From a virus, in IMG/VR virus record IMGVR_UViG_3300047564_003831, positions 1 through 46,448 of that record: a stretch of DNA of 46,448 nt; one strand, written 5' to 3'. Below, in pieces: positions 20,394-46,448 of the stretch (position 1 is its first letter; each line of letters starts with the position of its first letter). The translations under genes and the position numbers were made by a program. A model generated the notes under the pieces. The model was not told where the DNA came from and made no database searches. It saw only the letters and a list, made by a program, of their open reading frames with translations.

Positions 20394-20401
20394 TATTTAT
20401 T
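20394..20401 (-). promoter_or_regulatory. Late promoter AATAAATA overlapping the giant gene stop
   Basis: The TAA stop of the giant gene forms part of TAATAAATA, 29 bases before the gp8 start. Confidence 0.55.
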
Positions 20402-32400: not shown

Positions 32401-35400
32401 GAAATAATTCCGCCAGATCCAGAAGGTACTATCTCAATAGTTGGTGGTAATGTATAACCAGACCCTGGATTTATGATTGTAAATCCAGTAACTTCACCAT
32501 TCTCTATATTTGCTTCAACTACCGCATCTTTACCATTTCCGATAATCTTTACACTTGGTTTTGTATAGTAATTTTTACCTCTCTTAACCAATACAACAGA
32601 AGCAACCTTGCCGGAAGCTACGTAAACAGAAGCTTCTGCACCACTACCAGAATCAAGTGTAACCTTTGGAGCAATATCAAAAGTTTCTGTAATTGTTTCA
32701 AATGAATCAATCAAGAAGAAATTATCTTTGTAGTAATTGGTGAATGAGGTTAACTGACCTCTCATTTCAACAATTTTTACTCCATTGATGCTATATGGAA
32801 TAACAATATCTGGAGATTCAAGTTTACCACCACCGATAATTCTTATGGTAGGAGCTTCTACATATCCATTACCAGAATTTCTGACAATAATATTATCAAT
32901 TGCTCCAGTATCTTCATTATAACTCAAATCAAATTCTGCTTGCTGGAAGTCAGCTGGATTAACTACATCTCCAATCAATCCGAATGAAAAATTACCAAGA
33001 TCATTGATGTATTGAAGATCAATTGCATTTGATCCAATAATTGAATCACTTTCAGATGTATGCAGTGAATAAACTATTTCAGTACTTGATACTTCACTTA
33101 CTTTGCGAATATAGTACTGATTGTTATTTGTTAGTTTTGGAATAACATTCTGTAGAACATTATTGTAAGTTACCTTATCTGCAGTTTCAAATTTTGGATC
33201 ATCCTGAGAATATGTAATTGTAAATGTGTCGTTTAAGAGATTAATCGCAGACTTTAATACAGTGGATACTTTTCTTGGATTGTTATTTACTACTTCAATT
33301 ACTGGTTTTGTGGTGAATCCAACCAACTCTCCAGATGTTTGCCAAAACTCTGCTAGTTTGTTAAAATCAATATAAGTGAATTTTGAAGATAGTCTGATTA
33401 AAGATCTTTGGTTTGTTGCTTCAATTTGTGTTCCATTCTTTGTGATAACAAATGAAGGGAATTTATTGAAATCAAACCCACCGAATTGATTGATTGGGAC
33501 TTCATAATTACCACCATCACCAATTACAAAATTATTAATATAACCATAGCTTATGGTTGAACCCTTATACGAGTTTATCTGAATTGCATCTGCATTAATA
33601 CCAATTGCTTGCTTCGTTGGTACTTTATTTGTAATTACTCTTGCAGTATCTAGTAGAGTGGATTTTTTATATCTTGAAATTAACTTTTGATTGGTGAATG
33701 ATACTTTTTTAAGATCTGCATCATTCAATGTTACTTGAGAAAGATCTACAATTTCATTCCACCAACGAGGAATAGCACTAGTTGGTACATATACATACTC
33801 ATCATAATCGTATGTTGAGTTAAATCCAACAAAAGATTTGTGTGATGGTAGTCTGTTATCGGTTACAATATTTCCAGTTCTATTGAAATTTGAAGAAAGA
33901 ACAATAGCAAGTCTGTCAGAAATTTCTTTTGTTGTAAAATAATAGTTCTGAGTATTAGGTGACTTTAGATCAGCAAAAGTATATTGTTGTTTTGTGTGTA
34001 ACGAACCACCCTCAACTATGACAACATCTCCAGTCATAGCTAAAAGTTCAAATACAACATCTTCAATTAGATTACTTGAAGATTTGACATATGGAGCATG
34101 TTGGAACAGATTTGAACCTTCGTATTGCCAACTAACTGGTTCTGGATTTCCGTCAGCATAAGATCCATCTCTCTCAATACCAGAGGTATGCTTAGGACCG
34201 TTTAGTGTTCCAGTGATACCAGAGTTTACTGCTCTGTATAGATTATTTTTGTAATATCTAAATTCTCCCTCTTTGATTTCTTCATTGATCTGCCACTTGA
34301 CGGTATATCTTTGTCTACCCCATGATAGAACTCTTACACCAGCGTCAATAGTAGTTGAAGTTCCACTGTAATAGAACGAACAATCAAAAAACTGATTGAT
34401 TGATCTATGTACATAGTGGATTAACACACCATTTACAGAAAGGATACCATTTGTTACTGGGAATCTGCTAGCATCATCAACCGTGATTACAAAATTGTTT
34501 CCGAGATTTGTCTCAGATCTAATAATTTTTGTGCTTGGTGGGAGATAAAGATAATTGATATCAGAATTTGATGAAACCTCAAACTCATAAGTTTCATCTT
34601 GTAGAGAAATGATATTATCAACTTCAATATTTACACCATTGACTCCAAATAATGGATCTGGATCTTGGACAATATCAAGTACAGTTGGTAATTCACCATA
34701 AACAGACAATTGACCACTTATTAGTTTGCACTTTATAACTTTCTTCTCAACCAATAGTGAGTTGGAAGTCTTAAATGTGTATTCTCTTGGGAATTCAATA
34801 TTCTGCTCTTCTGGAATTGTTTCAACTCCACTTCTGATTGAAGTTGTTCCGATGAATGCTCTAGAGATAGTTGCTCTTGGTGATTCTCCACCAACACCGA
34901 TGATTTCATCATCAGAAGAAAAATAACCAACAACATCATATAGAACTAGTTCATTTCTATACGCATCCCAATAATCAACTCTTCCATAACCAGTACCAGA
35001 TGTATTGTAAATTCTTTGATCTTGGAAGAAAGATCTTACACGAACTCTTGATTTGATAGGTCCAATATAACCCTCCCCAGAATCAACTACCTCAATAGAA
35101 GTAATAGATCCGTTATTGTCAATACCAGTTACTTTTATAACGGCAGTATCGTTTGGTCTCAATCCGTTTTGAATTTCACCAGAACCACTACCAAGTACAT
35201 CAATAATTGGAGAGTTGATGAACTCATTCGTAGATGGATCTCTACGGTTATCATATCCAGATCCACCAGAGACAATTTCTGGTGCTGGTTCTTTAGGAAT
35301 ATACTTATTGTAATTATTGATCTTTAACTTCGCGCCCGATCCTCTTGGATTGAGTAAAATATTATACTTTTTATCATTGAATAGAATCTTAAAGATGATT

Positions 35401-36020
35401 CTGTGACCATTCAGACTTCCCTTTGCTGAATAGAAGGACTTGATATTTTTTAAGAACTGAGTATAGTCAAGATCCTCAACAACATTTTCAGTGATTAATG
35501 GAGCAATTTCAGACTTGATTCTGCTGAAAAACTCATTTGCATATGCAAAAGAAATGTTGACTACAGATGACCCATTTCTATGTTCTTCTGCTTTGCTACT
35601 AGTTAATACAACTTCCGATCTAGGAACACTTTTTAATACAAGAGCTGAAGTCCCCCTTACACAGTCAACAAATTTGTTTCCATCAATTCTCTTATAAAAA
35701 ATGATTTCATTGTTGATTTGAATGTAACCATTTTCAAATGGGAATCCAACAGTACTTTCAACCTCAATAGTAGTTGAGTCAGAGAGTAAGTTTCCAATCA
35801 ATTTGGTCTCTTCAACCAGTTGATTTGGTCTATAGTAACCAATATTATAATAATCAATTAAATTTGTAGCAATATCAAGTGGTTGATACTTATTTTCTAG
35901 AGATTCGTAATATGAAGAAAGAAACTCTAAAAATTTAGGATTATTTTGTTGAACAAAAAAAGGAAACTGATTCTCAATTAAATTTGAGATATTGGACTTC
36001 TTCTCTTCTAGGTATCTCAT
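20400..36020 (-). CDS. Giant gp7-position baseplate protein with an embedded alpha/beta hydrolase
   Basis: About 5,206 residues from the ATG at 36020, which overlaps the gp6 stop as ATGA (an upstream TTG start is less likely). The N-terminus (NQFPFFVQQNNPKFLEFLSS) is typical of large cyanophage wedge proteins. By position between gp6 and gp8 it corresponds to T4 gp7, but it is about five times longer. Residues about 240-1900 contain several GxGY beta modules. About 2580-4360 carry many repeats of the NGVYQ..TDY..ITF type. A hydrolase-like domain covers about 4500-4780: LYHG oxyanion-type strand, GHSQGG with Ser4632, Asp4717 in SLDDTT, His4759 in GGHAAF. It is flanked by more GxGY modules. Repeats resume to the end (CAIGHKQNDRVYSDGYL). 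Substrate unknown; an esterase or depolymerase acting on cell-surface polymer is an inference. Confidence 0.88.
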   Translation of the reverse strand: MRYLEEKKSNISNLIENQFPFFVQQNNPKFLEFLSSYYESLENKYQPLDIATNLIDYYNIGYYRPNQLVEETKLIGNLLSDSTTIEVESTVGFPFENGYIQINNEIIFYKRIDGNKFVDCVRGTSALVLKSVPRSEVVLTSSKAEEHRNGSSVVNISFAYANEFFSRIKSEIAPLITENVVEDLDYTQFLKNIKSFYSAKGSLNGHRIIFKILFNDKKYNILLNPRGSGAKLKINNYNKYIPKEPAPEIVSGGSGYDNRRDPSTNEFINSPIIDVLGSGSGEIQNGLRPNDTAVIKVTGIDNNGSITSIEVVDSGEGYIGPIKSRVRVRSFFQDQRIYNTSGTGYGRVDYWDAYRNELVLYDVVGYFSSDDEIIGVGGESPRATISRAFIGTTSIRSGVETIPEEQNIEFPREYTFKTSNSLLVEKKVIKCKLISGQLSVYGELPTVLDIVQDPDPLFGVNGVNIEVDNIISLQDETYEFEVSSNSDINYLYLPPSTKIIRSETNLGNNFVITVDDASRFPVTNGILSVNGVLIHYVHRSINQFFDCSFYYSGTSTTIDAGVRVLSWGRQRYTVKWQINEEIKEGEFRYYKNNLYRAVNSGITGTLNGPKHTSGIERDGSYADGNPEPVSWQYEGSNLFQHAPYVKSSSNLIEDVVFELLAMTGDVVIVEGGSLHTKQQYTFADLKSPNTQNYYFTTKEISDRLAIVLSSNFNRTGNIVTDNRLPSHKSFVGFNSTYDYDEYVYVPTSAIPRWWNEIVDLSQVTLNDADLKKVSFTNQKLISRYKKSTLLDTARVITNKVPTKQAIGINADAIQINSYKGSTISYGYINNFVIGDGGNYEVPINQFGGFDFNKFPSFVITKNGTQIEATNQRSLIRLSSKFTYIDFNKLAEFWQTSGELVGFTTKPVIEVVNNNPRKVSTVLKSAINLLNDTFTITYSQDDPKFETADKVTYNNVLQNVIPKLTNNNQYYIRKVSEVSSTEIVYSLHTSESDSIIGSNAIDLQYINDLGNFSFGLIGDVVNPADFQQAEFDLSYNEDTGAIDNIIVRNSGNGYVEAPTIRIIGGGKLESPDIVIPYSINGVKIVEMRGQLTSFTNYYKDNFFLIDSFETITETFDIAPKVTLDSGSGAEASVYVASGKVASVVLVKRGKNYYTKPSVKIIGNGKDAVVEANIENGEVTGFTIINPGSGYTLPPTIEIVPSGSGGIISARLNEWTFNMVERLNKIGRVDSFGGYVYNESDYDTSNPDSNNVLKLQTIDPETDLPPSLDDRQYVLLSTSDKLLAKYTIEQRYGYLQVQYPNETLSYQTQQDIDNVLSKNVHSPVICVSYDGVPVYGKMCHSVRFDGTSPLSEIKSRYKLKYNTTQTAGSVSYTVNGTTYYVNREGGPSIEDYPIGSFIEDYEFVTGLDDDLDIHNGRFCVTPEYPNGRYCYFATTQSFDSVTNEIISQTSVDYNGFPYYIGDTYSSEPDFYVNKGCRTNDKIPKAFARTFDKEVVGFEIPGVFKFDGLPENVFYPTENTNYDRTILRSTSLTPGSVDSVIIENPGRGYRVGDSVIVDNTLTFGSGFGAFVSKVSGKAISNVLVSVDRKTVTVFTNGRNGLAVGDYVYFDYTTPLNPVTINLFDSSFLPASDKLKKSDNLSVLFNEDAVNKYSDKKFYTLSLNSKYKYKFNIPNQSYTFTLDIDRNNEFFVIEEPGSADPASIIFDASKLPNILYLHIGNYIYEITTSNEYFGEYRIQEIDIDTNSFTVPVLLDPTEFETLNLFYTAKSRGASGGVAEISVSNRGYNYRKLPAVEVVSDINGGTGTGAIIQANSSTIGQIRNVGYLTPGGGFTSNDTINHYLNLPATAKIINNFEIYEVEVVERGQEYKDQLKVLVNGQENLAQLKINVQLGIVISVDVIDGGTNFETIPTIEIVSSTGTGCVLRAKIRRKQLQPGQILKGNINSQVFPVQVTAQTVNFDDLSSTLEFDESVGSFKENDLVYTDDGKKYGRIISIRRPKAYAKSNSYVTLESSRNDINGNSSEFLQKLTDSNVYQDWSYILSSSRDTKEWREQVEVNTHPSGNNLFGKKIIERRKFFFDRPEDVFKTSVIFTTNLVNDILLKVKLAPCKDQVISIPNVEDFEIGDYIFGSISEAIGEVVEKTEYSLKVALRNDIRFIIGELIITVPTEFSFGVESATSRSLAFWNGIMQEPEVSYETSFEYYDEFGDPLIVPAVGSLIPKFDLDPADELVQYKLSTGVTIFDSADLEGSESVYYPSVNGIAYDIGANFLDNTIISISGSVQNPINLQVNDNENYVKFLDTTKYNSRLFGITSESFNRLLFSGPSTGTTYTINYSVSDACQLLIFYSGVHQTQLLTDYTVTNNTVTFSEPIELSNVFGWYVDEEVECESVSIQDLLNNRITGTWRCDTKNFTQFINSSAVRTPTSLYEQRKEYLDGVISADPDNTTLYGFNTKFTYTTPEYSRSFIEVLDKFDFNGTDRAFKLTRINGNPYTPVKGEDSLMVYVDNNALDQDEYSINGDTIAFNTTYAAGSECTIIDFNSTYTADTVGIGSANLDRLDVQQDGIRRRFNLSDRGVPQYTKNVGDVFAIRNGVLQRPDNRHQSVTTNKITFNDAPQFTDSTELLWFNRQLLPLPTKNVVLDDFYCFDGERKDFPLTLDGINFYPINVHNLFVVRNGVYQKPGIDFRLGTPLDIREVPGLDSYTLDGSSIVFSEAPVETDEVTVFYSYDGLNQNLKIDPLRYFNGVETTFALTRNYISTTPTSVDHIQVYRNGVYQYSGQDYILQTTNGGPRITFTTAPLQTDDIFVTEFNTSVNFVNKTIDFVQVSPTSIQNQSNELITSTDELLIYSSGVLVSDGWSVNYGTQTVTFDEEFDLTSAVRIFVVRNSAGQLDKFYKFDGIQTTFPITKDVVSRTPYSVNHIQVYRNGLYQYSGTDYSVETTNGGPRITFTSAPTPTDNIFITNFNSTSDFTDATNVFTQISPTEFQYPSTVGSDFLLIFKDGIVQLPGAYSYNQVNNVLTFVEPITQPNTLRIYIIGNQVRELDRFYVLDGVNPTFPLTYFYNPVNIPSANNILVYRNGVYQYSTLDYNISTNSKGSQFITFTTAPTSTDDIFICQVSDASNFEDITNDFVQDNVTTLGNITTLDSSKTLLIYKQGILQNRNSYTYDYNTDKLQFTESFVLNSSVRIFAVDKTVYSQSTTPSGFIEKYFEVDGSTTAFPLTLNNSSYIWTEGVSGNIQVHRNGVFQQTGFTTSNVNGGPRIVFSDAPVATESIFVTSFAEGEFVKIQTGLVETSAQVITYTGAIDISVGEVLIFREGILQNKDTYTKNGNVFTFTENVSVSGLAFYHIPNSYRIDSPYLFDGATTTFPLTKNNQTIATNTASNSLVYRNGVYQYQGTDYTIQTTNGGTRITFTTPVNSNEQVFVQNFDITSGFENLTSDFTAVSPTVYQYTGNIGVEPIIVFVAGIMQVRDSWTYNSTTQQLVFSETPNGTVNVYQIQNCPIVVNQIITSSTVTRYQLKNGRKPHFPVSAESLFVCVDGIVQKAGESYSVEGSELVFLNDVLTSGIPLVVIDASSVNLRVLDHIESAWEIGDSKYIRTLQNYQTMDAESILLSINGIIQDPNFYSVSNNILQINDQPERGWDLIEAFDTTLSGYIRLDDLGTLRDQTSEYTEFVMTDNYWTISPSTESLVINIEGVVQSPVTSYDTTGTILRVNSPTIDFTKTEIINISSCQIRLVDVLSDLYDEYIDNSGLIHTQFIIRNSYSELVSADKAFTVYGSVVQQPDQDYVITNDGVKLFEIITEYGVNINELHVFDASKTSYELIDSLNSLVSINGENATIRLTHNYQTISGLDNERALVQVGGVVQGPNTYSIVNSTITVVSDEYEVVKVYDFRGSNLRLIDYLSEDETTPTFRLQQNYTTFTPSNLIDLFVLRDSVLQNPVDDYTAGSGYITFTSNLERNTDLFILYTHSSEEIIPITPIPFTICTTEDTYTLPYVLTEDEKSRIILYLNGVPNFHGRDFVINGNILSFLGGAFVDDGATPFIVKYVNLTFIDDLENCPDGVRTKFKLLYKGLNIRALSSADILTSRDGIIQNPDVDYTVDLEVRNGVSLAKWINFVSPLEKEHNTFFVRMYENISASLNPVSSTQFQITSQILDYDNLYVFANGNWMLPTKDYTIANNVITLQVPSVDVFAIEFTGIVKLLDEIHTPYDSTRDRFNLFLTEENFVPLATVENDTIPDETSILVIKNNRVLDPKVDYILSGDIRSQIVFDVAPTPEDIIMIKAVGSMIKLQTLTSGFNGSNKVFDLTLSGQPYYPNAEIERPRNHENQILVIKDGYIQSPVFDYYIDNNKLIFNQPVAQNTSKIVLLDYRGTADDVHVDNRLYQVKVGDTVHLDCSIDEERTFVFERTVSEILSPTVMKTTPVSQNLFSGFSGSAVYENGKVVDLITTSGGTGYVYPTALVTKGSGATAIGIANIDQYAGGKVLTSSPLVSTGSYSGTAIPIAVTHNNLPVRGALYIPNISDVSLDVIVLYHGTIVFDGITPLDAATNFLNIATDPNGLNLGNKIIFSVAYPQDAIPGWTPQAAADQFPGLDLTQFFFGDNLEYAEAALLWVKEALGAALINGGYGKTIDRIYTFGHSQGGSLVQKLNTMHEVDGVIANAPGPIDLTTRCVFSEETVDGNVTCAKLRSRYGSAITNPERYDQVSLTSYLSGMLSPILFTQSLDDTTGNSSNVPQAENLQNIVEAALDSCSDCKKVTFKYYQSGGHAAFTTNLFLQRDIRDFIEYGELEFNKVDIQFPGYNIYMPQVVVPAVRAFAYRKSQLTTSNISKATALTSDISDTAEVIPVIKTDIFPTNALQIQIDSPTGSGASFIPYVIDGYLRKLEIVSGGIGYDERYIQVSVIGGGGSGAVLEPVLDAFGTITDLIIRNPGIGYDSFRAFINSEAIEYTDKTETELIGVTRNILNYGLNPSEFPLVKNATFITVHSDSHLQVFRNGVHQTPGVDYYTSEMDSDCRKIYFATAVNLQEDNIFITHFNSADDFQDISSDFTQVNQTTIQYNGVLSSQYLMVVIDGVVQMSDSWGINTVNNTVIFDQPVNISTQQVLIYNITSPVNVLTPFVMTEDNTYTLSSSVTSAESIMVIVDGVVQEPIKSYTVSGNTITFDAIYEGSTVSVVDFSSLDYRILDDIRISRWVNTSTCAIGHKQNDRVYSDGYL
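21660..22510 (-). other. Alpha/beta-hydrolase (esterase-like) domain within the giant protein
   Basis: Minus-strand residues about 4500-4785. The order strand-HG, long helical segment (AEAALLWVKEALGAALINGG), IYTFGHSQGGSLVQKL, LFTQSLDD, then QSGGHAAF reproduces the nucleophile-acid-histidine order of the alpha/beta-hydrolase fold. The Ser codon is at 22125-22127, the first Asp codon at 21870-21872 and the His codon at 21744-21746. Cys pairs (CVFSEETVDGNVTC and CSDC) may form disulfides, as in secreted esterases. The layout resembles PHB depolymerase or feruloyl esterase type enzymes. Confidence 0.75.
25500..28290 (-). repeat. Tandem NGVYQ/TDY repeats in the giant gene
   Basis: Successive units recur about every 440-500 bases (the NGVYQ-type phrase lies near 25860, 26305, 26800, 27255 and 27717), with a shorter unit near 28000. 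Each contains a half with VYRNGVYQYSGTDY and GGPRITFT, then a half with a GI(L/V)Q phrase and a strand ending VRIF. Degenerate single halves continue to about 22950 and reappear near 20600-21050. Confidence 0.8.
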
Positions 36021-38119
36021 GAGCAAGCTGTTGGATCGGTTTCTGGTGTGAAATTATCTATTGTGCGGATGTCATTTGGATCAGTTCCGCCGGTAGGATC
36101 ATTTATGGTTGGATCTATGATTTGTGGTTCTTCAATAACTGGGAAAGTTACTGGTAGTCCACCTCCAATTCCTGGATCTGGTGGTGGAATCACAAATGTA
36201 TTTCCTTCTGGGTCTGATACTACTAGATCATTTTCAGCAGGAGGTGCTGAAGAAGTAGGATCTCCTGTAGTTGGAACTGATAATATCTCATCAACTGGTA
36301 ATGTATTATTATCAGGATTTAGTGAGTCATCAAGATCAGTATTGATAATGATGTCATCAACTACTAGGTTTGGAGTAGTTCCAGGACCAGAAATAATTTC
36401 TACTACATCTGGTATAACTGTAATATTTATTGGAGTCTCTTGGCACATTTCCACTGTAAAATTGAGTTCTCCAGTTGCAGGATTTACTGTGCCCACCTTA
36501 CTTTTGAGAAGTCTTCCTCCTATTGAATATAGGTTAAGATCACCTGAATAATCACAATTTCCCATCGCTCCAATGAACACTGGAGTCACATAACCAACAG
36601 CACAGAATGGTTCAGATAGAACATAAAATTCGGACTTTGTACTGGTTTTTAACTTTGTGAAAAAGTCTAGTTCATACTTTGCAAGAACACCAGTCATTGG
36701 TTGCATGGATTTCTGCAAGTAAATAAGTACGTTTACAAATTTAATAGAATTTTCAAGATCTTTAATTCTGCAAACTAGATCAGAATCTGAATACAATCCA
36801 CCAAACGAATTGAAATCAGGATCCTTAACGTAATTTAAAATTTCTCCATTTACAAGAGAAGTAATATCAGAAATAGTTTTTCTAGTTGTAGTTTGATCAT
36901 ATACAACGATAGGTCTGATACGGATATCAAGTACGTCTGGATCTACAATTTTTGCAGTGATTGAACCAACCTGATACTTCTTAAGTTCTCTGGAGATTCT
37001 ATTTTTTTCACTTTGACTTGTTCTTTCTCCAACAATTGGTTTAATTGCAATATATACTTCTCCAAATCTAGGTGGTTTTAATGATTCTCCACCAATAACA
37101 TTGACCAAATCTGCGTTAGAATATATTTGTCTTACAATTGCCTCGTAGTCAGATAGTGTGACCGCTCTTTCTTGTGAAGCATAGTATCTTGGAGCAGCAT
37201 ATTTGATTGATCTGATGCTCTCAAATTCAGAACCTCCATCAGAAAACTCAGAAACCAATTCATATCTGATATTAGTTAATCCTATTAAATTTTCATTATT
37301 ATTAATTCTACCGAAAACAGAACCAACAAAATCAAATATTCTGATACTATTTGACTCTGCACCCGAAGAAACAACGTATTGTAGTCTGATTACCTCACCA
37401 TCTCTCAATCTTCTACCAAATACATCATCTCCGAAGATAACTTCGTACTTTTGATCCTGTACTTCTTCAACGAAGAAAATTTTACTTTCTGCAGTAACAT
37501 CAACAATTGATGTCTTTCTTACATATTCGTCTTCAATATTAGTTGTTGGATCAGAGATTACAAACGCTCTGATACTTTCTGCGTCAACAAAACTATTTGG
37601 AATGAAGAATCTTTGGTGTTCGTTTGAAGTATCTACCGTGTATGTAATTGAAAAGTCAGAACCTTCTACCAATTCAACGTTAGGGAATACTACGCTGTTC
37701 TTTCCTCTAACATCTAACTCTAAAGGATCTCTAAGGATAAACTTAAAATTCTTACCATTAGCAGATGCAGCTAACAGAGTTCCTGGTGCTACCTTAATAC
37801 TATCGTAATTTTGAGTATTTTCAACAATCAGATTAAAATATACTCTTGAAGAAGTATATGAACTTGGATTATAACCGAGTCTTTTTGCAATTGAAACAAT
37901 ATTATCACGTAAAACTGCGGTATCTAAGTTTAGTTCATTTGCCGCCATATTAACGTTGTATGACGTATACAACGTATTATAAGCTAAAATATCAACCAGC
38001 ATAGACAGGTTTGATCCTTCAAAGTCATAATCTTTGAAGTCTGTCTTTGTTTTAATAAAAGTTTTTATTGAACTCTTTAACTGCTCAAATTCTAAAGCAG
38101 ATACTACTGGTAATTCCAT
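36017..38119 (-). CDS. 6: Baseplate wedge subunit gp6 with acidic Pro-rich tail
   Basis: 700 residues (T4 gp6 is 660). The N-terminus (FEQLKSSIKTFIKTKTDFKD, GSNLSMLVDILAYNTLYTSY, NMAANELNLDTAVLRDNIVS) and RYYASQERAVTLSDYEAIVR near residue 315 are hallmark gp6/J-like baseplate features. The family forms the wedge ring around the hub. The last 130 residues are unusual: low complexity, rich in Asp, Pro, Thr and Gly (for example PPPDPGIGGGLP), ending in Cys-Ser. The start lies five bases after the gp25 stop. Confidence 0.94.
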   Translation of the reverse strand: MELPVVSALEFEQLKSSIKTFIKTKTDFKDYDFEGSNLSMLVDILAYNTLYTSYNVNMAANELNLDTAVLRDNIVSIAKRLGYNPSSYTSSRVYFNLIVENTQNYDSIKVAPGTLLAASANGKNFKFILRDPLELDVRGKNSVVFPNVELVEGSDFSITYTVDTSNEHQRFFIPNSFVDAESIRAFVISDPTTNIEDEYVRKTSIVDVTAESKIFFVEEVQDQKYEVIFGDDVFGRRLRDGEVIRLQYVVSSGAESNSIRIFDFVGSVFGRINNNENLIGLTNIRYELVSEFSDGGSEFESIRSIKYAAPRYYASQERAVTLSDYEAIVRQIYSNADLVNVIGGESLKPPRFGEVYIAIKPIVGERTSQSEKNRISRELKKYQVGSITAKIVDPDVLDIRIRPIVVYDQTTTRKTISDITSLVNGEILNYVKDPDFNSFGGLYSDSDLVCRIKDLENSIKFVNVLIYLQKSMQPMTGVLAKYELDFFTKLKTSTKSEFYVLSEPFCAVGYVTPVFIGAMGNCDYSGDLNLYSIGGRLLKSKVGTVNPATGELNFTVEMCQETPINITVIPDVVEIISGPGTTPNLVVDDIIINTDLDDSLNPDNNTLPVDEILSVPTTGDPTSSAPPAENDLVVSDPEGNTFVIPPPDPGIGGGLPVTFPVIEEPQIIDPTINDPTGGTDPNDIRTIDNFTPETDPTACS

Positions 38120-39376: not shown

Positions 39377-42300
39377 TTAATCCTCCTTGATTGTGAATAT
39401 CCAGTGTTGTGAGACGCTAAATCCTGTTTCATAACTACTAATTACAGGAATTTTTGGTGGATCTTCATAAACGTCAATATTTTCACTTGAGATTTCATCA
39501 GAATTTGATCCAACTAGTTGTAGAGTTCCATCACCATCTCCATCGGCAGTTGCAGTGAAAACTGTACCAACGGTTGCATTCTTACCAGCTCCACATTTTT
39601 CCCAGTTTGTAGTACCAAGACTTGTAATTTTGTATCTCACTCCAACTTCTAGTGAATACGCTGGAATTGTAATTTCAAAGTCGGTTGTGGTTCCGAACAA
39701 AGCACGTTCACAATTTTCAAATGTTGTATTAGTTTTTGACTTGTAGTAGATAATTTCTTCACCACAATATGTAAATACAGAATCTACATTTCCAGTTTCA
39801 GTAGTATATAACTTTTTAGTATACTTTGGAATCATCAAATATCCAGAAGATAGGAATCCTTCTGTTGATTGAACGTGAATTGTTGTATCAGATGGTTCAA
39901 TTGTTTTAGTAATTTTTGCTCTAATAGGATTATCCAAGTATGGATTTCCAGTATTCATAATTGCTTCACCAAGCAACTCAGAAAGTTCATCCATTCTGAA
40001 CCATAATATTTTATGGAAGTCCATTTGGTAGTTAATGTTTGGTGACCAAAGAACTTTTGGAAAAATTGAGGCAGTAGGTGCCAGGATATCACTATTATCT
40101 GACCTGTAGATATTATCAAGATCTCTTAGATCTGGATGAACACCCCAGTTAGTTGCAGAGATATATCCAGTTTGTTCTGTGGATAATTTACTGAAATCCC
40201 ATGGTTCAGCTTTTTCACCAAAATTGATGTTCTTATTATCACCCTTGGGTTGTGGATTAGTCCATCCAGTAGTACATGTACATGGAGGAGGTGGTGGATC
40301 CCCTTCACATAGAACTGGTGGTGGTACTGTAACTGCACCAGTTGCAGAAGTAATAGTATCTAAGTATCCACCAGATTGATTAACAGTAACAGTTAATGTT
40401 GATGAGAATGCTCCACAAAGACCAGAATGGAACTTTGTATTTGACCAGGAAGACGCACCATTCCAAATCCAACGAGGTCTTGAACGAATAATAATTTTTG
40501 GTTGATTTACAGTCGTTGCAGGATCAAGATTGAAGTTTGGATCCATATCTTTATCAGTTGCAACCATAGAGTCATTGATAAAGAATTTAACTCTATCCAT
40601 TGCTGGAGGCATTGCTCTAAAGTTTGGAACCATCCAATTGATTCCAGATCCATCCTGACCCTCAATTGTTGGAGGTGCATTTGGAATTTTTGTACTAGTA
40701 GGTACTGATCTCTTAGTAATACTTGCACTATTATCAAGTCTCTTGAGAAGAGAATCTTCATTTGAAACTAGTCTTTCATAATAATCTTTAGATAGTACTG
40801 TAGAGTTTGAAACAGATCTTTCTATGATATCTTCAATATTCTTTTTGAAGTCATCAACTGTAGTAGCACTGGAGTTTGGTTGAACTCCAAGTACACAATC
40901 ATCCTGAATCGCACTAGCAACTTGAGAAACTGCACCTTGGATATCTTCAACTTCAACAATTCCATCATAAACTAGAGAATAATCTAGAGTTAGATCATCT
41001 CTACAAATATCATCAAATGTACCTGCAGCCTTTCTACCACCAAGAGTAGTACGTACATAAGTATTCAGATTATTGTAAACTTCAAGATAGTTCTGAGAAT
41101 CTGAATTGAATTGTGACAAGAATAGTTCTAGTGTATCTTTATCAATCAAACCATATGTAAATGATGCATATGTTGATGCAATTCTATATGCTTCTGTGGT
41201 CTTTGGTGATGTTAACAACCACTTACCTTCTGCTCTGGTATTATCATCCCAAACAGTGGTTCCTAAAACATATGTTCCATTATCATCTTCTAGGAATGCC
41301 TTTTCACAGTTTGGATCTGCAGAATAGAAAATAGGATCGTATTGAATTTCCTTTTTGTTTTTTGTAAAGTAAATTCCAACGATTGCAGATCTGTTTATGA
41401 TACCTTTTCCAGCTCTTGCACAAACAGTGATTCCTGTAGAAACACCATCTCTGAGTACTTCATAGTTTGTGTCTGCATCAAAACTTCCACCGCTGATTTT
41501 TGCATAACAGAGAGTATTTTTACTGACACGATTGATTTCACTATCTAAAAATCTTACACTCTTGATTTTCTTACTGGTTAGAGGTTTGTCTAGGTATACA
41601 CGACTTCTAGATTCATCTACACCAGTGACGAATGTATCCTTATCAATTCCGTTACCAGTTACTAGACTTCCCTTTACAATACCATCTGCAGTATTCAGTC
41701 TTAACCAAGATTTTGTATTTACATAATCAGTTGTAGTATAAGTTGGATCTAGTGCTAGAAATTCAGCTTGTGTGATATCTGGATCCGAAGAACCCTTATC
41801 AGAGGACTTAGATGCATTTCTCTTCAGTGAAACTTCAACAACATAGTTGACTACATTATCAACAGTTGCGCCATTGATCGTATCTCCAATGACAACTAGA
41901 TTAGTCGTACCAACTTCATTCTCATCCTCAAGATCTACAACATAGTGAAAGAACAGACAATCATCATCAGTTCCACCATGATAGATAACGGGTTGACCAA
42001 TTCTATCTGTAATGCTACCATCCGAATCCTGAATAGTTCCATCTGGATTCAGTGCTAATGGTTGATAACCCCAGTAGTCATCAATGTAATATAATTCACT
42101 ATCAACCTTATCCAGAGTCATTGTACCGCCTGGATAGGTTGCAGAATGTTCAAAGTACGTTGTAACACCGCCACAACATTCAGTTTCAAATACAAATCCA
42201 CCAACCTTCCTTTGTTGCATCGTGTGCTCGGTTGGCCAATTGAAGATATGTTGGAAGTATTCTTCGTCGTAAGTAATATAAGGTCTTACCTTCTCCTCAT

Positions 42301-42682
42301 AGAGAAAGATATTCTTTTTACCTTTATTTTCAATTTCGGTATCATGATCATATGAATACCCAGGAGCACTTAGAATTGCATTGATTTCCTGTTCTTCTGT
42401 CGTTGAATTATATGCATCCTCATAATCCGTAATGTATTCGTACCGAACCATATAAGGATCTTTGGTTCCGTATGTTAGTGCTCTAAGAGGAATACCATTT
42501 GGATCTGATCCAGGTAACTGACTAAAACGCTTATCGGCCTCATCTAGATCCCATGTACCAACTTCATTGAATACATTCTTGACGATATTATTAATCGTTA
42601 TCCCATTGCAACTGATTGTTCTGCCAGTTGATTGGTAACTAGGTTTAACGTTTTCAATTTTAGGTCTAAACTTCTTTGCCAT
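39377..42682 (-). CDS. Large virion structural protein upstream of the PAAR gene
   Basis: 1,101 residues. The start (MAKKFRPKIENVKPSYQSTG then GITINNIVKNVFNEVGTWDL) I associate with cyanophage structural proteins of unknown role. Near residue 165 is a Cys-rich FETECCGGVTTYFEH. Near 780-800 is a Pro-rich segment with PPPPCTCTTG. The last 180 residues hold two widespread beta modules: GYLMIPKYTKK..EEIIYYKSK..CERALFGTT (about 930-1000) and YKITSLGTTNWEKCG..GTVFTATADG (about 1010-1060). By position it corresponds to T4 gene 5 (hub), but I see no lysozyme-like catalytic motif, so hub identity is a hypothesis only. Confidence 0.8.
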   Translation of the reverse strand: MAKKFRPKIENVKPSYQSTGRTISCNGITINNIVKNVFNEVGTWDLDEADKRFSQLPGSDPNGIPLRALTYGTKDPYMVRYEYITDYEDAYNSTTEEQEINAILSAPGYSYDHDTEIENKGKKNIFLYEEKVRPYITYDEEYFQHIFNWPTEHTMQQRKVGGFVFETECCGGVTTYFEHSATYPGGTMTLDKVDSELYYIDDYWGYQPLALNPDGTIQDSDGSITDRIGQPVIYHGGTDDDCLFFHYVVDLEDENEVGTTNLVVIGDTINGATVDNVVNYVVEVSLKRNASKSSDKGSSDPDITQAEFLALDPTYTTTDYVNTKSWLRLNTADGIVKGSLVTGNGIDKDTFVTGVDESRSRVYLDKPLTSKKIKSVRFLDSEINRVSKNTLCYAKISGGSFDADTNYEVLRDGVSTGITVCARAGKGIINRSAIVGIYFTKNKKEIQYDPIFYSADPNCEKAFLEDDNGTYVLGTTVWDDNTRAEGKWLLTSPKTTEAYRIASTYASFTYGLIDKDTLELFLSQFNSDSQNYLEVYNNLNTYVRTTLGGRKAAGTFDDICRDDLTLDYSLVYDGIVEVEDIQGAVSQVASAIQDDCVLGVQPNSSATTVDDFKKNIEDIIERSVSNSTVLSKDYYERLVSNEDSLLKRLDNSASITKRSVPTSTKIPNAPPTIEGQDGSGINWMVPNFRAMPPAMDRVKFFINDSMVATDKDMDPNFNLDPATTVNQPKIIIRSRPRWIWNGASSWSNTKFHSGLCGAFSSTLTVTVNQSGGYLDTITSATGAVTVPPPVLCEGDPPPPPCTCTTGWTNPQPKGDNKNINFGEKAEPWDFSKLSTEQTGYISATNWGVHPDLRDLDNIYRSDNSDILAPTASIFPKVLWSPNINYQMDFHKILWFRMDELSELLGEAIMNTGNPYLDNPIRAKITKTIEPSDTTIHVQSTEGFLSSGYLMIPKYTKKLYTTETGNVDSVFTYCGEEIIYYKSKTNTTFENCERALFGTTTDFEITIPAYSLEVGVRYKITSLGTTNWEKCGAGKNATVGTVFTATADGDGDGTLQLVGSNSDEISSENIDVYEDPPKIPVISSYETGFSVSQHWIFTIKED

Positions 42683-42708: not shown

Positions 42709-42888
42709 CTACTCGCCTACTCTATGTAGTCTCAAACCAGGCTCGGAGTTGTAGTCATGATATTCCCATTCTACCACATCGCCTTCCCCCCAACCAAGTT
42801 CTTCCACTAGATCATATGGGATGGATATGTAGAACTCACCTGTAATTTCGTCCTGTGTGACTTCTGTTGAATAATCAAAACTTGACAT
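42709..42888 (-). CDS. AbrB/SpoVT-like small protein
   Basis: 59 residues from the ATG at 42888 (an in-frame ATG at 42897 adds three residues). The pattern EITGEFYISIPYDLVEELGWGEGDVVEWEYH fits the swapped-hairpin AbrB fold: strand, IPxxLVEELGWxxGDxVEW, then a C-terminal strand ending LRLHRVGE. Such proteins bind DNA as dimers and serve as regulators or antitoxins. No toxin partner is seen beside it, so a phage transcription regulator is likelier. The protein is quite acidic for a DNA binder. It is followed by the 1,101-residue gene. Confidence 0.75.
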   Translation of the reverse strand: MSSFDYSTEVTQDEITGEFYISIPYDLVEELGWGEGDVVEWEYHDYNSEPGLRLHRVGE

Positions 42889-42918
42889 ATGTATCATTTG
42901 ATATAACTGCAGTATATA

Positions 42919-43682: not shown

Positions 43683-43922
43683 TCAGCCGGAGGTCTTGAA
43701 ATAGGCTGCAGCGTTGCCCTCTACGATGGCGTGCTGGGCGTGAGTGGCATGCCCCTGGTATGCTTGACCGCGGCGGTTGGTGTTGGAGCGACTGCCCTTT
43801 GTCATGCTCATCGTGAGCTCACCCTTGCGAGGGCGGCGAGTGGGGAGCACGGTGTATTTGATCTCACCACGGGTGTCAGCGATGAGCAGGTCAAGCTTGG
43901 AGGCGGTTGCAGCGTTGAGCAT
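43683..43922 (-). CDS. Small basic protein, early cluster
   Basis: 79 residues. A central motif RRPRKGELTMSMTKGSRSNT then NRRGQAYQGHATHAQ is basic and Gly/Ser/Asn-rich; the N-terminus (MLNAATASKLDLLIADTRGE) is more ordered. Not confidently assigned to a family. It follows a copy of the recurring promoter-like motif (43941-43956) at 19 bases, and its codons are GC-richer than the structural genes. Confidence 0.6.
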   Translation of the reverse strand: MLNAATASKLDLLIADTRGEIKYTVLPTRRPRKGELTMSMTKGSRSNTNRRGQAYQGHATHAQHAIVEGNAAAYFKTSG

Positions 43923-43940
43923 GGTCTGTGTGTTGGTGAC

Positions 43941-43956
43941 TTGGCTATTGTACAGG
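43941..43956 (-). promoter_or_regulatory. Recurring early-gene motif, copy 1
   Basis: Minus strand CCCTGTACAATAGCCA, with a TACAAT -10-like hexamer, 19 bases before the ATG at 43922. Confidence 0.5.
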
Positions 43957-43971
43957 GTCAGGGGTGAGAGG

Positions 43972-44199
43972 TCAAGCGACCCCTAGAGCGAGGTCGGCGA
44001 TCTGATCAATCCGATCCACACTGCCACCGGCACGCATCCAGCGGTAAGCAGACCCGTTGGCGGGCACTCGCCAGATCATGCATTCCTCGCCCCAGATCTT
44101 GGCGAGCACGTTGGCATGGATCGTATCAGTGGCCCACTCGCAACCGTGAGGATCAAAGGAAGTCCAGGCGGTGGGTTGGACAGCGAAACCGAAAGTCAT
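43972..44199 (-). CDS. Small Trp-rich protein, early cluster
   Basis: 75 residues from the ATG at 44199, chosen because the promoter-like motif lies at 44215-44234. A longer in-frame start would include that motif. The sequence has many Trp (AWTSFDPHGCEW, KIWGEECMIWRVPANGSAYR, WMRAGGSV) and a short Ile/Ala-rich end. Not recognised. One of several cassette-like genes here. Confidence 0.6.
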   Translation of the reverse strand: MTFGFAVQPTAWTSFDPHGCEWATDTIHANVLAKIWGEECMIWRVPANGSAYRWMRAGGSVDRIDQIADLALGVA

Positions 44200-44214
44200 G
44201 AGGTGAGGTCGTTT

Positions 44215-44234
44215 GATCTGTAGCCATTGTAGGC
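44215..44234 (-). promoter_or_regulatory. Recurring early-gene motif, copy 2
   Basis: Minus strand GGCCTACAATGGCTACAGAT, with a TACAAT hexamer, 16 bases before the ATG at 44199. Confidence 0.5.
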
Positions 44235-44243
44235 CACTGGGCG

Positions 44244-44405
44244 TCACCAGCGGCCATCCCATGTGTCAGTTGCCCATCCGTCCCGTTCCCTCCGGCGGGC
44301 ATCGTAGGCGTCGGCATCCATGGTATCATCGTGCTCGGCATCATCTGTGAACACGTCGGCAGCATCAAGGTATGCTGCATGGGCGAAAGTTTCGTAGGTT
44401 TGCAT
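44244..44405 (-). CDS. Small acidic protein, early cluster
   Basis: 53 residues from the ATG at 44405 (a longer start would overlap the tiny upstream gene). It begins MQTYETFAHAAYLDAADVFT and is Asp-rich (DDAEHDDTMDADAYD) before a short ARRRERDGW turn and a Trp-rich end. I count about 15 acidic against 5 Arg. No family recognised. Confidence 0.55.
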   Translation of the reverse strand: MQTYETFAHAAYLDAADVFTDDAEHDDTMDADAYDARRRERDGWATDTWDGRW

Positions 44406-44410
44406 AGCGA

Positions 44411-44488
44411 TCACTTCAGCAGTTTGGAGATGAACCGTTCGCCAGATTTGATGGCGTAGACACACACAAACAAGACGACCAGTTCCAT
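44411..44488 (-). CDS. Possible 25-residue membrane peptide
   Basis: The ATG at 44488 opens 25 residues: MELVVLFVCVYAIKSGERF then ISKLLK. It has a hydrophobic first half and a basic end, like a single membrane-inserted helix. Its stop is five bases before the ATG of the next gene. No strong ribosome-binding site is visible, so this is tentative. Confidence 0.4.
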   Translation of the reverse strand: MELVVLFVCVYAIKSGERFISKLLK

Positions 44489-44523
44489 TCAGTTAGAGGT
44501 AAGATGTGCAGAGGGGTTTGTGA

Positions 44524-44679
44524 TCAGAAATCAATCCACTCCAGAGTAGGATCTGCAGTGGGCACATCTGCCACAGGGGCATCAGAAACCGTGTCGTTGG
44601 CGATGACATCCAGAATGGAGAGAATTTCATTGCCGGTGTTGCCTTGACGCAGCATGGAGATCAGAACTTGCTTGGACAT
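44524..44679 (-). CDS. Small conserved cyanophage protein (51 residues)
   Basis: 51 residues from the ATG at 44679: MSKQVLISMLRQGNTGNEIL, then an Ile/Leu helix, an acidic Val/Ala/Pro-rich linker and an ending TLEWIDF. The LRQGNTGNEIL phrase I recall in small cyanophage proteins of unknown role. No promoter-like motif was found in the 63 bases before it, so it may be read from the gene upstream (44743-45063). Confidence 0.65.
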   Translation of the reverse strand: MSKQVLISMLRQGNTGNEILSILDVIANDTVSDAPVADVPTADPTLEWIDF

Positions 44680-44742
44680 GATTTCAGTGAGTTAGGTTAA
44701 CGAAGTGTGTGGTGCTTTTAGTGTCATCACCAGGACAGATGT

Positions 44743-45063
44743 TCAGTTCAGGCGCATACCCGAGAAGAATGGAATCACAGACTGATCAGCACAACGGAAG
44801 TGCCAAACATGGTTCTTCTGAAAGACACTTTCATGACCGATTCCATGTTCACGCAGAATTGCATTCAGACGCGATTTGGTGGTGACAGTCTGCCAACCCC
44901 CATCCATGAGCACGATGAAGTTATCACCAACCTCGGCAATCTTGTTACCGTGAAGGAACACATGGGAGACACCGTTCACAGTGGAAACCATAGTGTTATC
45001 AAGTTTCCACTCACTCTTGCCCTCGGCAATTGCTTTGTTCATCAGACGTTCAATCTTACGCAT
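44743..45063 (-). CDS. Conserved cyanophage hypothetical protein (106 residues)
   Basis: 106 residues, basic at the N-terminus (MRKIERLMNKAIAEGK). It has the core VSHVFLHGNKIAEVGDNFIV then GGWQTVTTKSRLNAILREHG and an FFSGM ending. This core pattern I recall in many cyanophage small proteins; function unknown. The promoter-like motif is at 45085-45102. It reads like a compact alpha/beta domain with a phosphate- or nucleic-acid-binding loop, but that is a guess. Confidence 0.75.
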   Translation of the reverse strand: MRKIERLMNKAIAEGKSEWKLDNTMVSTVNGVSHVFLHGNKIAEVGDNFIVLMDGGWQTVTTKSRLNAILREHGIGHESVFQKNHVWHFRCADQSVIPFFSGMRLN

Positions 45064-45084
45064 GATCGTGTGGGGTTGTTTGAT

Positions 45085-45102
45085 CTGTAGCCAGTATGGG
45101 GG
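45085..45102 (-). promoter_or_regulatory. Recurring early-gene motif, copy 3
   Basis: Minus strand CCCCCATACTGGCTACAG, 22 bases before the ATG at 45063. Identical over 18 bases to the copy at 45840-45857. Confidence 0.55.
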
Positions 45103-45120
45103 ATGATGGGGTCGGAATCA

Positions 45121-45151
45121 AGTGGCCGAGTGCCACTTGTCTGACTGTCAC
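45121..45151 (-). terminator. Stem-loop at the stop of the 56-residue gene
   Basis: Minus strand GTGACA-(10)-TGGCAC with one mismatch; its first arm holds the TGA stop. An overlapping perfect alternative is AGTGGC-CGAGT-GCCACT (45121-45137). No U-tract. Confidence 0.45.
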
Positions 45152-45318
45152 ATCCCATTCAGGAAGTCGGCCAGAGCCTCCTTGTATTCTGCCTCAGTGG
45201 CAAAGGTCCGAGCACCGATCGTGCGAGGGTAGGTCGCCTTAGGGGCGGGTGCCGTGGGCAGATCACGACCCTTGGCGAGGATCTGCTGGGCGTAGGGGTT
45301 GGAAGTGGTTTTGATCAT
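45148..45318 (-). CDS. Small protein, early cluster (56 residues)
   Basis: The ATG at 45318 opens 56 residues: MIKTTSNPYAQQILAKGRDL, then a Pro/Ala-rich stretch (PTAPAPKATYP) and TEAEYKEALADFLNGM at the end. The N- and C-terminal helices joined by a Pro-rich linker look like a small binding protein. The promoter-like motif begins only two bases before the ATG, so a transcript from it would be almost leaderless. Confidence 0.65.
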   Translation of the reverse strand: MIKTTSNPYAQQILAKGRDLPTAPAPKATYPRTIGARTFATEAEYKEALADFLNGM

Positions 45319-45320
45319 GT

Positions 45321-45336
45321 GGCTACAATACAGGGT
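45321..45336 (-). promoter_or_regulatory. Recurring early-gene motif, copy 4
   Basis: Minus strand ACCCTGTATTGTAGCC, ending two bases before the ATG at 45318. Confidence 0.5.
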
Positions 45337-45352
45337 CGGCGGTCGGTTTCAA

Positions 45353-45382
45353 GGGGGCAGTGGACAGTCCCCCGATTGTCAC
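45353..45382 (-). terminator. Stem-loops after the ArdA-like gene
   Basis: Plus strand GGGGG (45353-45357) pairs CCCCC (45369-45373). Overlapping it, GTGACA pairs TGTC(C)AC with one bulge (arms 45377-45382 and 45360-45366), directly after the TGA stop. No U-tract. Confidence 0.45.
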
Positions 45383-45820
45383 TCATTCATCTTTAAAGAT
45401 GTGCCAGGCACGGTAGGTTGTGCCATCGTTGCAGGCAGTGAAATCATAGCGAAGCGATGTATCCCATGTGGCATCCCAATCAACCACAATGCCATCGGGG
45501 ATGTTGTAACCCAGTTGATCGTAGAATTCTTCAGCGAAGTCAGCAACACTGTGGTAGCAACCCTGATAGCGTTCGTCGCAATCTTCAATGTCACTCACAC
45601 ATCCCATTTCACCGATCAAAGCATCAACTGCCTCGTAACCGATTGCCTCACCAACCCGAACGTATTCCTCGTAATAGTTGATGAAATCCTTCTCATTGTA
45701 CTCATCAATGAAGGTCAACATTGCCTCCAGATCGTACAACTCATCTTTCAGTTCTTCAATCTTCTCAACAGTTGCCTCAGTGAGGAATTCAGTGTAGCTG
45801 TCGGTCAGAGTGACGGTCAT
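45383..45820 (-). CDS. ArdA-like antirestriction protein (acidic DNA mimic)
   Basis: 145 residues, with about 37 Asp/Glu against 8 Lys/Arg, so strongly acidic. The second half (residues 85-142: YQGCYHSVADFAEEFYDQLG, then IPDGIVVDWDATWDTSLRYD and RAWHIF) matches the order of the ArdA C-terminal part: Y-x-G ... S-x-x-D-F-A-E-E ... D-(Y/W) ... (H/V)-x-I-F. The first half (ELKDELYDLEAMLTFIDEYN) is a helical region. ArdA proteins mimic DNA and inhibit type I restriction enzymes, typically early in infection. The recurring motif precedes it by 20 bases and a stem-loop follows the stop. The fold call is by pattern; a search or model would settle it. Confidence 0.65.
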   Translation of the reverse strand: MTVTLTDSYTEFLTEATVEKIEELKDELYDLEAMLTFIDEYNEKDFINYYEEYVRVGEAIGYEAVDALIGEMGCVSDIEDCDERYQGCYHSVADFAEEFYDQLGYNIPDGIVVDWDATWDTSLRYDFTACNDGTTYRAWHIFKDE

Positions 45821-45839
45821 TTGGTTTCGTTTGTTTGAA

Positions 45840-45857
45840 CTGTAGCCAGTATGGGGG
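45840..45857 (-). promoter_or_regulatory. Recurring early-gene motif, copy 5
   Basis: Minus strand CCCCCATACTGGCTACAG, 20 bases before the ATG at 45820. A GGGGGA/TCCCCC hairpin (45863-45882) lies just upstream. Confidence 0.55.
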
Positions 45858-45883
45858 ATGATGGGGGACTTTGCAATCCCCCT

Positions 45884-45907
45884 TGTGACACTTCTCAGAC
45901 TGTCACA
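45884..45907 (-). terminator. Perfect stem-loop at the stop of the 63-residue gene
   Basis: Minus strand TGTGACA-GTCTGAGAAG-TGTCACA: seven pairs, ten-base loop; the TGA stop is inside the loop. No U-tract. Nearly identical to the copy at 46146-46169. Confidence 0.55.
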
Positions 45908-46086
45908 GTGTATTCTTTCACAACATCAAACAAGGGAGACATTTGCACATAGTTCCACTCACCATCATCCTCACCTTCCTGATAGAGATGATAGTTTCCA
46001 TTCTCATCCTGTTTCACATAGCAACCATCAAAATCTTCATCATCAAAAACATAACCTTCGGACAGGAGAGTTTCGGTGAAAGTCAT
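45895..46086 (-). CDS. Small very acidic protein, early cluster (63 residues)
   Basis: 63 residues beginning MTFTETLLSEGYVFDDEDFD, with about 16 acidic residues against 2 Lys. Alternating aromatic and acidic residues (NYHLYQEGEDDGEWNYVQM) suggest a small beta-sheet protein with a negative face. The ArdA-like gene is next downstream, so two acidic proteins are adjacent; a second DNA-mimic role is possible but not shown. The recurring motif is 21 bases upstream. Confidence 0.65.
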   Translation of the reverse strand: MTFTETLLSEGYVFDDEDFDGCYVKQDENGNYHLYQEGEDDGEWNYVQMSPLFDVVKEYTVTV

Positions 46087-46106
46087 CTCGTTTTTTTGAA
46101 CTGAAG

Positions 46107-46120
46107 TTACAATACCAGGG
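46107..46120 (-). promoter_or_regulatory. Recurring early-gene motif, copy 6
   Basis: Minus strand CCCTGGTATTGTAA, 21 bases before the ATG at 46086. Confidence 0.5.
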
Positions 46121-46145
46121 GATCGGGTGAGAAGTCTAGTGGCCT

Positions 46146-46169
46146 TGTGACACTTCCTAGACTGTCACA
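46146..46169 (-). terminator. Perfect stem-loop at the stop of the 59-residue gene
   Basis: Minus strand TGTGACA-GTCTAGGAAG-TGTCACA. The TGA stop lies within the first arm. A second perfect pairing, AGTCTAG (46133-46139) with CTAGACT (46157-46163), overlaps the loop. Confidence 0.55.
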
Positions 46170-46344
46170 CATCATAGCATAGGTAACCTCGTTTCTGCTG
46201 ATAATACCATGCCTGATCAGTTTCATTCTCCAGAGCAACAGCAACTGACAGACAGAAATCATAAGTTTCTGCCATGCTGTTGTTTAACCACATGTTCAGA
46301 TCATGATTCTGAATGATGTTGGTGTTGAAAAAATTGTCTTTCAT
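46165..46344 (-). CDS. Small protein, early cluster (59 residues)
   Basis: 59 residues from the ATG at 46344, chosen because the recurring motif (46368-46377) and a long hairpin lie just upstream; a longer frame would run through both. The sequence (MKDNFFNTNIIQNHDLNMWL, then AETYDFCLSVAVALENE and AWYYQQKRGYLCYDV) is polar with an amphipathic helix in the middle. Not recognised. Confidence 0.6.
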   Translation of the reverse strand: MKDNFFNTNIIQNHDLNMWLNNSMAETYDFCLSVAVALENETDQAWYYQQKRGYLCYDV

Positions 46345-46367
46345 GAACTGAATTCCTGACGACTTAA

Positions 46368-46377
46368 CTACAATACC
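46368..46377 (-). promoter_or_regulatory. Recurring early-gene motif, copy 7
   Basis: Minus strand GGTATTGTAG, 24 bases before the ATG at 46344. Confidence 0.45.
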
Positions 46378-46380
46378 ATG

Positions 46381-46427
46381 GTGCCGGATGCCTGTCATGA
46401 TGTTATGGACAGTACTACATCCGGCAC
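46381..46427 (-). terminator. Long perfect inverted repeat near the window edge
   Basis: GTGCCGGATG (46381-46390) pairs exactly with CATCCGGCAC (46418-46427). An inner CTGTC/GACAG stem (46392-46396, 46408-46412) extends it. Probably the 3' hairpin of a gene whose end is just outside or at the window edge. No U-tract. Confidence 0.55.
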
Positions 46428-46448
46428 ATGATATCATTCAGAGCGCCC

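Follow-up and report, generated by a model that had tools for sequence, protein, structure and literature searches.

Analysis of a 46,448-base stretch of viral DNA (hereinafter the window) identified a gene at 45383..45820 on the minus strand, coding for a short ArdA-like anti-restriction protein of 145 aa. We favor, with a probability of roughly 0.7, the reading that this is a shortened ArdA, comprising domains 2 and 3 without domain 1, which is expressed early from a sigma70 promoter and acts as a dimeric DNA mimic blocking a type I restriction enzyme. Under the proposed mechanism, the protein would keep the helical domain 2 and the α/β domain 3 of ArdA, having lost the N-terminal domain 1; a promoter of the host sigma70 type would probably drive transcription of the gene in the early phase of infection, the product would probably dimerize through domain 3, and the acidic surface of the dimer may mimic the DNA to which the specificity–methylase core of a type I restriction-modification enzyme binds. 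With the mimic occupying the enzyme, incoming phage DNA would not be cut. This reading would place the cyanomyoviruses among the phages with ArdA-type counter-defence and would mean that an ArdA lacking domain 1 has persisted stably across a large lineage of phages. The protein is a member of a family already annotated in RefSeq and as PHROG 36653; the present analysis contributes a statistically firm connection to ArdA domains 2 and 3, shows that domain 1 is missing, and adds the promoter class and a mismatch with the host.

Several findings show that the ORF is a genuine gene and that purifying selection acts on it: it begins with an ATG, its product matches PHROG 36653 (‘anti-restriction protein’) along its full length (E 1.1e-48; residues 1–144 on 1–151 of 152), orthologs are readily recovered, and the median dN/dS over 207 pairs of family members is 0.18. 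We interpret an ORF on the opposite strand (45299–45838) as a mechanical by-product. Scanning viral contigs yielded 57 relatives, and a wider scan yielded 114 stretches that encode relatives, 80 of them kept; in dozens of other contigs the protein is conserved over its full length at 57–75% identity. The orthologs found by tblastn in the Synechococcus phages S-PM2 (66.7% identity) and S-SZBM1 (65.3%) are both labeled ‘anti-restriction protein’ in RefSeq. Relatives were not found in bacterial genomes, PADLOC and NCBIfam searches with the protein returned nothing relevant, and a functional test of any cyanophage member of the family was not found in the literature. The strong acidity claimed by the sequence-only reading (about 37 acidic and 8 basic residues) is borne out to the residue (D+E = 37, K+R = 8; pI 4.05, net charge −29). 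This is a property of the entire family, as the net charge lies between −24 and −32 in 41/41 aligned members, and 28 columns of the 41-sequence alignment are at least 80% D/E.

The same reading held that the second half of the protein follows the ArdA pattern. A search against the Pfam ArdA profile (PF07275) did retrieve a match, starting at profile position 66 of 155, albeit at 20.9 bits, which for this sequence is below the curated cut-off of 27. Across the family, 37 of the 41 members match the profile and the best ortholog scores 31.4 bits, so that the cut-off is reached at the level of the family. None of 10 scrambled or reversed copies of the protein matched ArdA; nevertheless, one scrambled copy produced a fluke match of 21.8 bits to another Pfam family, and a single sub-threshold match is hence not trustworthy by itself. 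Similarity to plasmid ArdA at the BLAST level did not rise above noise. Sequence searches of solved structures with the single protein and with profiles retrieved no ArdA, including 2W82, the structure that Tn916 ORF18 finds over its whole length.

The sub-threshold score and the fluke match count in favor of a rival reading, that of a small acidic phage protein of unrelated function, such as an inhibitor of the host RNA polymerase or a scaffold, whose likeness to ArdA is one of composition only. We compared a profile of the short proteins (the orthologs, P-TIM68-like contigs, S-TIM5/54, and the NATL2A-133 protein) with one of full-length ArdAs including Tn916 ORF18. A comparison built from narrow alignments gave a probability of 1%, and a clear match emerged once short relatives at greater distance and further full-length ArdAs were included: hhalign aligned residues 45–129 with columns 77–166 of 196 in the ArdA profile (83.7%, E 8e-6), and overall the profile-profile probability was 84–87%, with about residues 45–137 aligned. 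The score of 40.4 compares with at most 19.9 in 200 column-permuted ArdA profiles, which are identical in composition to the real one, and with 16.2 for the reversed profile. Likewise, in reciprocal HMM searches the best real proteins scored above all shuffled sequences in both directions (up to 20.7 and 22.3 bits vs maxima of 9.9 and 11.7 among 1,700 and about 2,100 shuffled sequences, respectively). A further bridge is provided by the S-TIM54 protein, which matches both phrog_36653 (1e-14) and phrog_14321 (4e-7), the latter being also matched by Tn916 ArdA (2e-5) and enterobacterial ArdAs. On the strength of the shuffles and column permutations we reject composition as the cause of the match, and the profile comparisons point to a relationship with ArdA that is remote but real. 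The agreement of the profile methods upholds the claim regarding the second half and, as judged from these alignments, the homology covers only the C-terminal half of ArdA, namely domains 2 and 3 (residues about 45–130; 45431..45688 on the minus strand, from the hhalign alignment, backed by the permutation null).

Structural predictions gave mixed results. Foldseek searches with the first AlphaFold model recovered the anti-restriction proteins of P-TIM68, Streptomyces phage BRock, and Proteus phage Myduc with a probability of 1.00; matches to predicted phage anti-restriction proteins had TMq values of 0.40–0.75. Searches of the PDB with two models returned no solved ArdA and no match to 2W82, a point on the side of a purely compositional likeness; with the permutation results, the PHROG bridge, the ortholog above the Pfam cut-off, and the Foldseek matches set against it, we regard that explanation as very improbable. 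In both models, which are of monomers (pLDDT 86 and 89), the N-terminal 40 residues are helical and lack a counterpart in ArdA domain 1. The YxxGxLxGxW stretch (as in A3) is absent from the protein, and neither Pfam nor PHROG found an ArdA-type domain-1 gene beside its gene. Given that domain 1 is absent and the match is limited to domains 2 and 3, we classify the protein within the ArdA superfamily as a short form, distinct from a standard ArdA; the label ‘ArdA-like’ proposed earlier therefore stands for the C-terminal half, and fails with respect to domain 1 and to the Pfam cut-off for this sequence. In Tn916 ArdA, antirestriction has been assigned to domains 1 and 2 and antimodification to domain 3 (PMC3906837). 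However, sArdC, a protein of 114 aa with the C-terminal region only, protects phage lambda from the type I enzymes EcoKI and EcoR124II (PMC12548430), showing that a missing domain 1 does not exclude function.

The gene neighborhood agrees with the cyanophage origin suggested from the sequence. Genes for tail sheath, terminase, neck, and baseplate form a T4-like block in the window, and one of them, which codes for a baseplate wedge subunit (36017–38119), is taken for gp6; the Kyanoviridae marker Gp96 (Pfam Kyano_Gp96; 44743–45063) adjoins the ArdA-like gene, and the region is syntenic with S-PM2. Between the baseplate genes lies a single very large ORF of 5,208 codons (20400–36026, minus strand), where the S-PM2 gene in the same place spans 9.1 kb. 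Near the baseplate genes we also observed an ORF of 1101 aa (39377–42682, minus strand) with no PHROG match at 1e-5. Directly upstream of it, a 62-aa acidic protein (42709–42897, minus strand) contains a MazE/AbrB-type domain (PF04014; 26.7 bits vs a cut-off of 24.7) and is possibly a DNA-binding regulator.

Upstream of the ArdA-like gene we detected a putative sigma70-type promoter on the minus strand, with a −35 element TTGCAA (45871..45876) and a −10 element CATACT (45848..45853) separated by a 17-base spacer (shuffled P 0.02), the latter 27 bases before the ATG. This arrangement recurs in many orthologs, where the −10 boxes are better (TATATT, TACATT, TAATCT), and some orthologs are devoid of any. 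Averaged across 35 distinct upstream regions, the promoter score was 10.07, as against a maximum of 8.98 in 200 shuffled sets, though these regions are mutually related and hence not independent in this statistic. The T4-type late motif (NATAAATA) was found within 100 bp upstream of 0/40 ArdA orthologs and of none of the genes in the small-gene cluster of the window; within the same distance, it precedes four genes of the structural block. The earlier placement of the gene in an ‘early cluster’ thus finds support, resting on the type of promoter, and the gene is probably expressed early. Several small genes of the cluster (43683–46437, minus strand) have an apparent sigma70-like promoter of their own and a short leader, which is significant for only some of them; by sequence, the cluster seems to be a string of promoters rather than one operon. 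A 90-aa ORF in this cluster (46165–46437, minus strand) is probably over-long: its homologs align only from residue 27–35, mostly from 30–31, and a sigma70-like site precedes an ATG at 46344 that would yield a 59-aa protein.

The other component of the sequence-only reading was an anti-restriction or DNA-mimic island formed with an adjacent, very acidic 63-residue protein. The neighbor is as described (45895–46086, minus strand; 16 acidic and 2 basic residues), and a stronger version of the idea is that the 145-aa and 63-aa proteins are one split anti-restriction module, in which the latter replaces ArdA domain 1. Both proteins are very acidic, and their genes lie near each other in the window and in one other locus, L132. 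Yet, the 63-aa protein belongs to no family in Pfam or PHROG (best PHROG E 0.023) and shows no match to ArdA; among ArdA loci it is present only in a near-identical contig and L132. It is also present in S-CAM9 and DSL-LC02, both without an ArdA match, and in two further contigs for which the 4.2-kb stretches contain no ArdA. Its occurrence at one ArdA locus beyond the near-identical contig, together with its presence without ArdA, rules it out as an obligate partner. The proposed island is accordingly not retained as a conserved association, and we hold the split module to be the least probable of the explanations considered.

A distinct alternative is that the protein is a divergent DNA mimic derived from ArdA, directed at another DNA-binding host protein, such as a BREX methylase, another nuclease, or a transcription regulator. 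Host genomes (G001–G068) were searched for the marker domains HsdS and the HsdR N-terminal domain (HSDR_N). Neither HsdS nor HsdR was detectable in Synechococcus WH7803 (recorded as the host of S-PM2), in RCC307, or in five Prochlorococcus genomes, whereas type I genes (HsdS, HSDR_N) were found in Cyanobium, S. lacustris, and one metagenome bin labeled Prochlorococcus. Among genomes listed without completeness values, HSDR_N occurs in only 5/24 of the WH7803 genus vs 28/33 of the Cyanobium genus, implying that phages of the latter hosts would meet type I enzymes and that the ArdA-like gene may be important chiefly on Cyanobium-like hosts. S-SZBM1 infects strain CB0101, which we take to belong to a Cyanobium-related estuarine group. 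A puzzle is that S-PM2 carries an ArdA-like gene although no type I enzyme is detectable in its host WH7803. Most simply, the gene would be of benefit on alternative hosts that possess type I systems; that the main target of the shortened ArdA is some other DNA-binding defence protein or regulator of picocyanobacteria would explain its presence in S-PM2, but we consider this rather doubtful. In addition to the host distribution and the missing domain 1, the alternative of another target draws on the inhibition of BREX by the DNA mimic Ocr (PMC7261183) and on a report that ArdA affects gene expression in E. coli (PMC13300388). Conversely, the abundance of HSDR_N in Cyanobium and the activity of the C-terminal-only sArdC on type I systems (PMC12548430) speak against it, and on balance we find it unlikely. 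We retain a type I enzyme as the probable target of the shortened ArdA.

Comparison with known systems places the window protein closest to S-PM2 gene 068 (YP_195106.1) and S-SZBM1 gp017 (PHROG 36653), full-length orthologs with 65–67% identity that differ from it by sequence divergence only; in S-PM2, as in the window, the gene is one of a run of small genes located upstream of gp25–gp6. The short anti-restriction proteins of S-TIM5, S-TIM54, and P-TIM68 and a weakly similar NATL2A-133 protein share the short architecture and acidity, with the S-TIM54 and P-TIM68 proteins falling in the same PHROG; the identity of the S-TIM5/S-TIM54/P-TIM68 group to the window protein is 25–36% (tblastn). With Tn916 ArdA (ORF18, PDB 2W82) and the plasmid ArdAs (PF07275), it shares collinear homology over domains 2 and 3 and strong acidity; unlike it, these have a domain 1 with the conserved YxxGxLxGxW, and they are separated from it by an identity of <20% and the lack of a Foldseek match to the crystal structure. 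Ocr of phage T7, an early acidic DNA mimic acting against type I enzymes, would resemble it in function, going by the literature, and Ocr was not among the matches from Pfam, PHROG, or the PDB. By architecture, the window protein is analogous to the experimentally active sArdC of Lactococcus (PMC12548430), in which the C-terminal ArdA region alone is likewise independently encoded; sArdC is a bacterial chromosomal protein of 114 aa, whereas the window protein, encoded by a phage, has 145 aa and an additional helical segment at the N-terminus. Finally, Microcystis phage MaeS (L143), a freshwater cyanophage, codes for a full-length ArdA with domain 1 that is 47% identical to Tn916 ArdA; with the short forms found elsewhere, cyanophages thus hold both long and short versions of ArdA.
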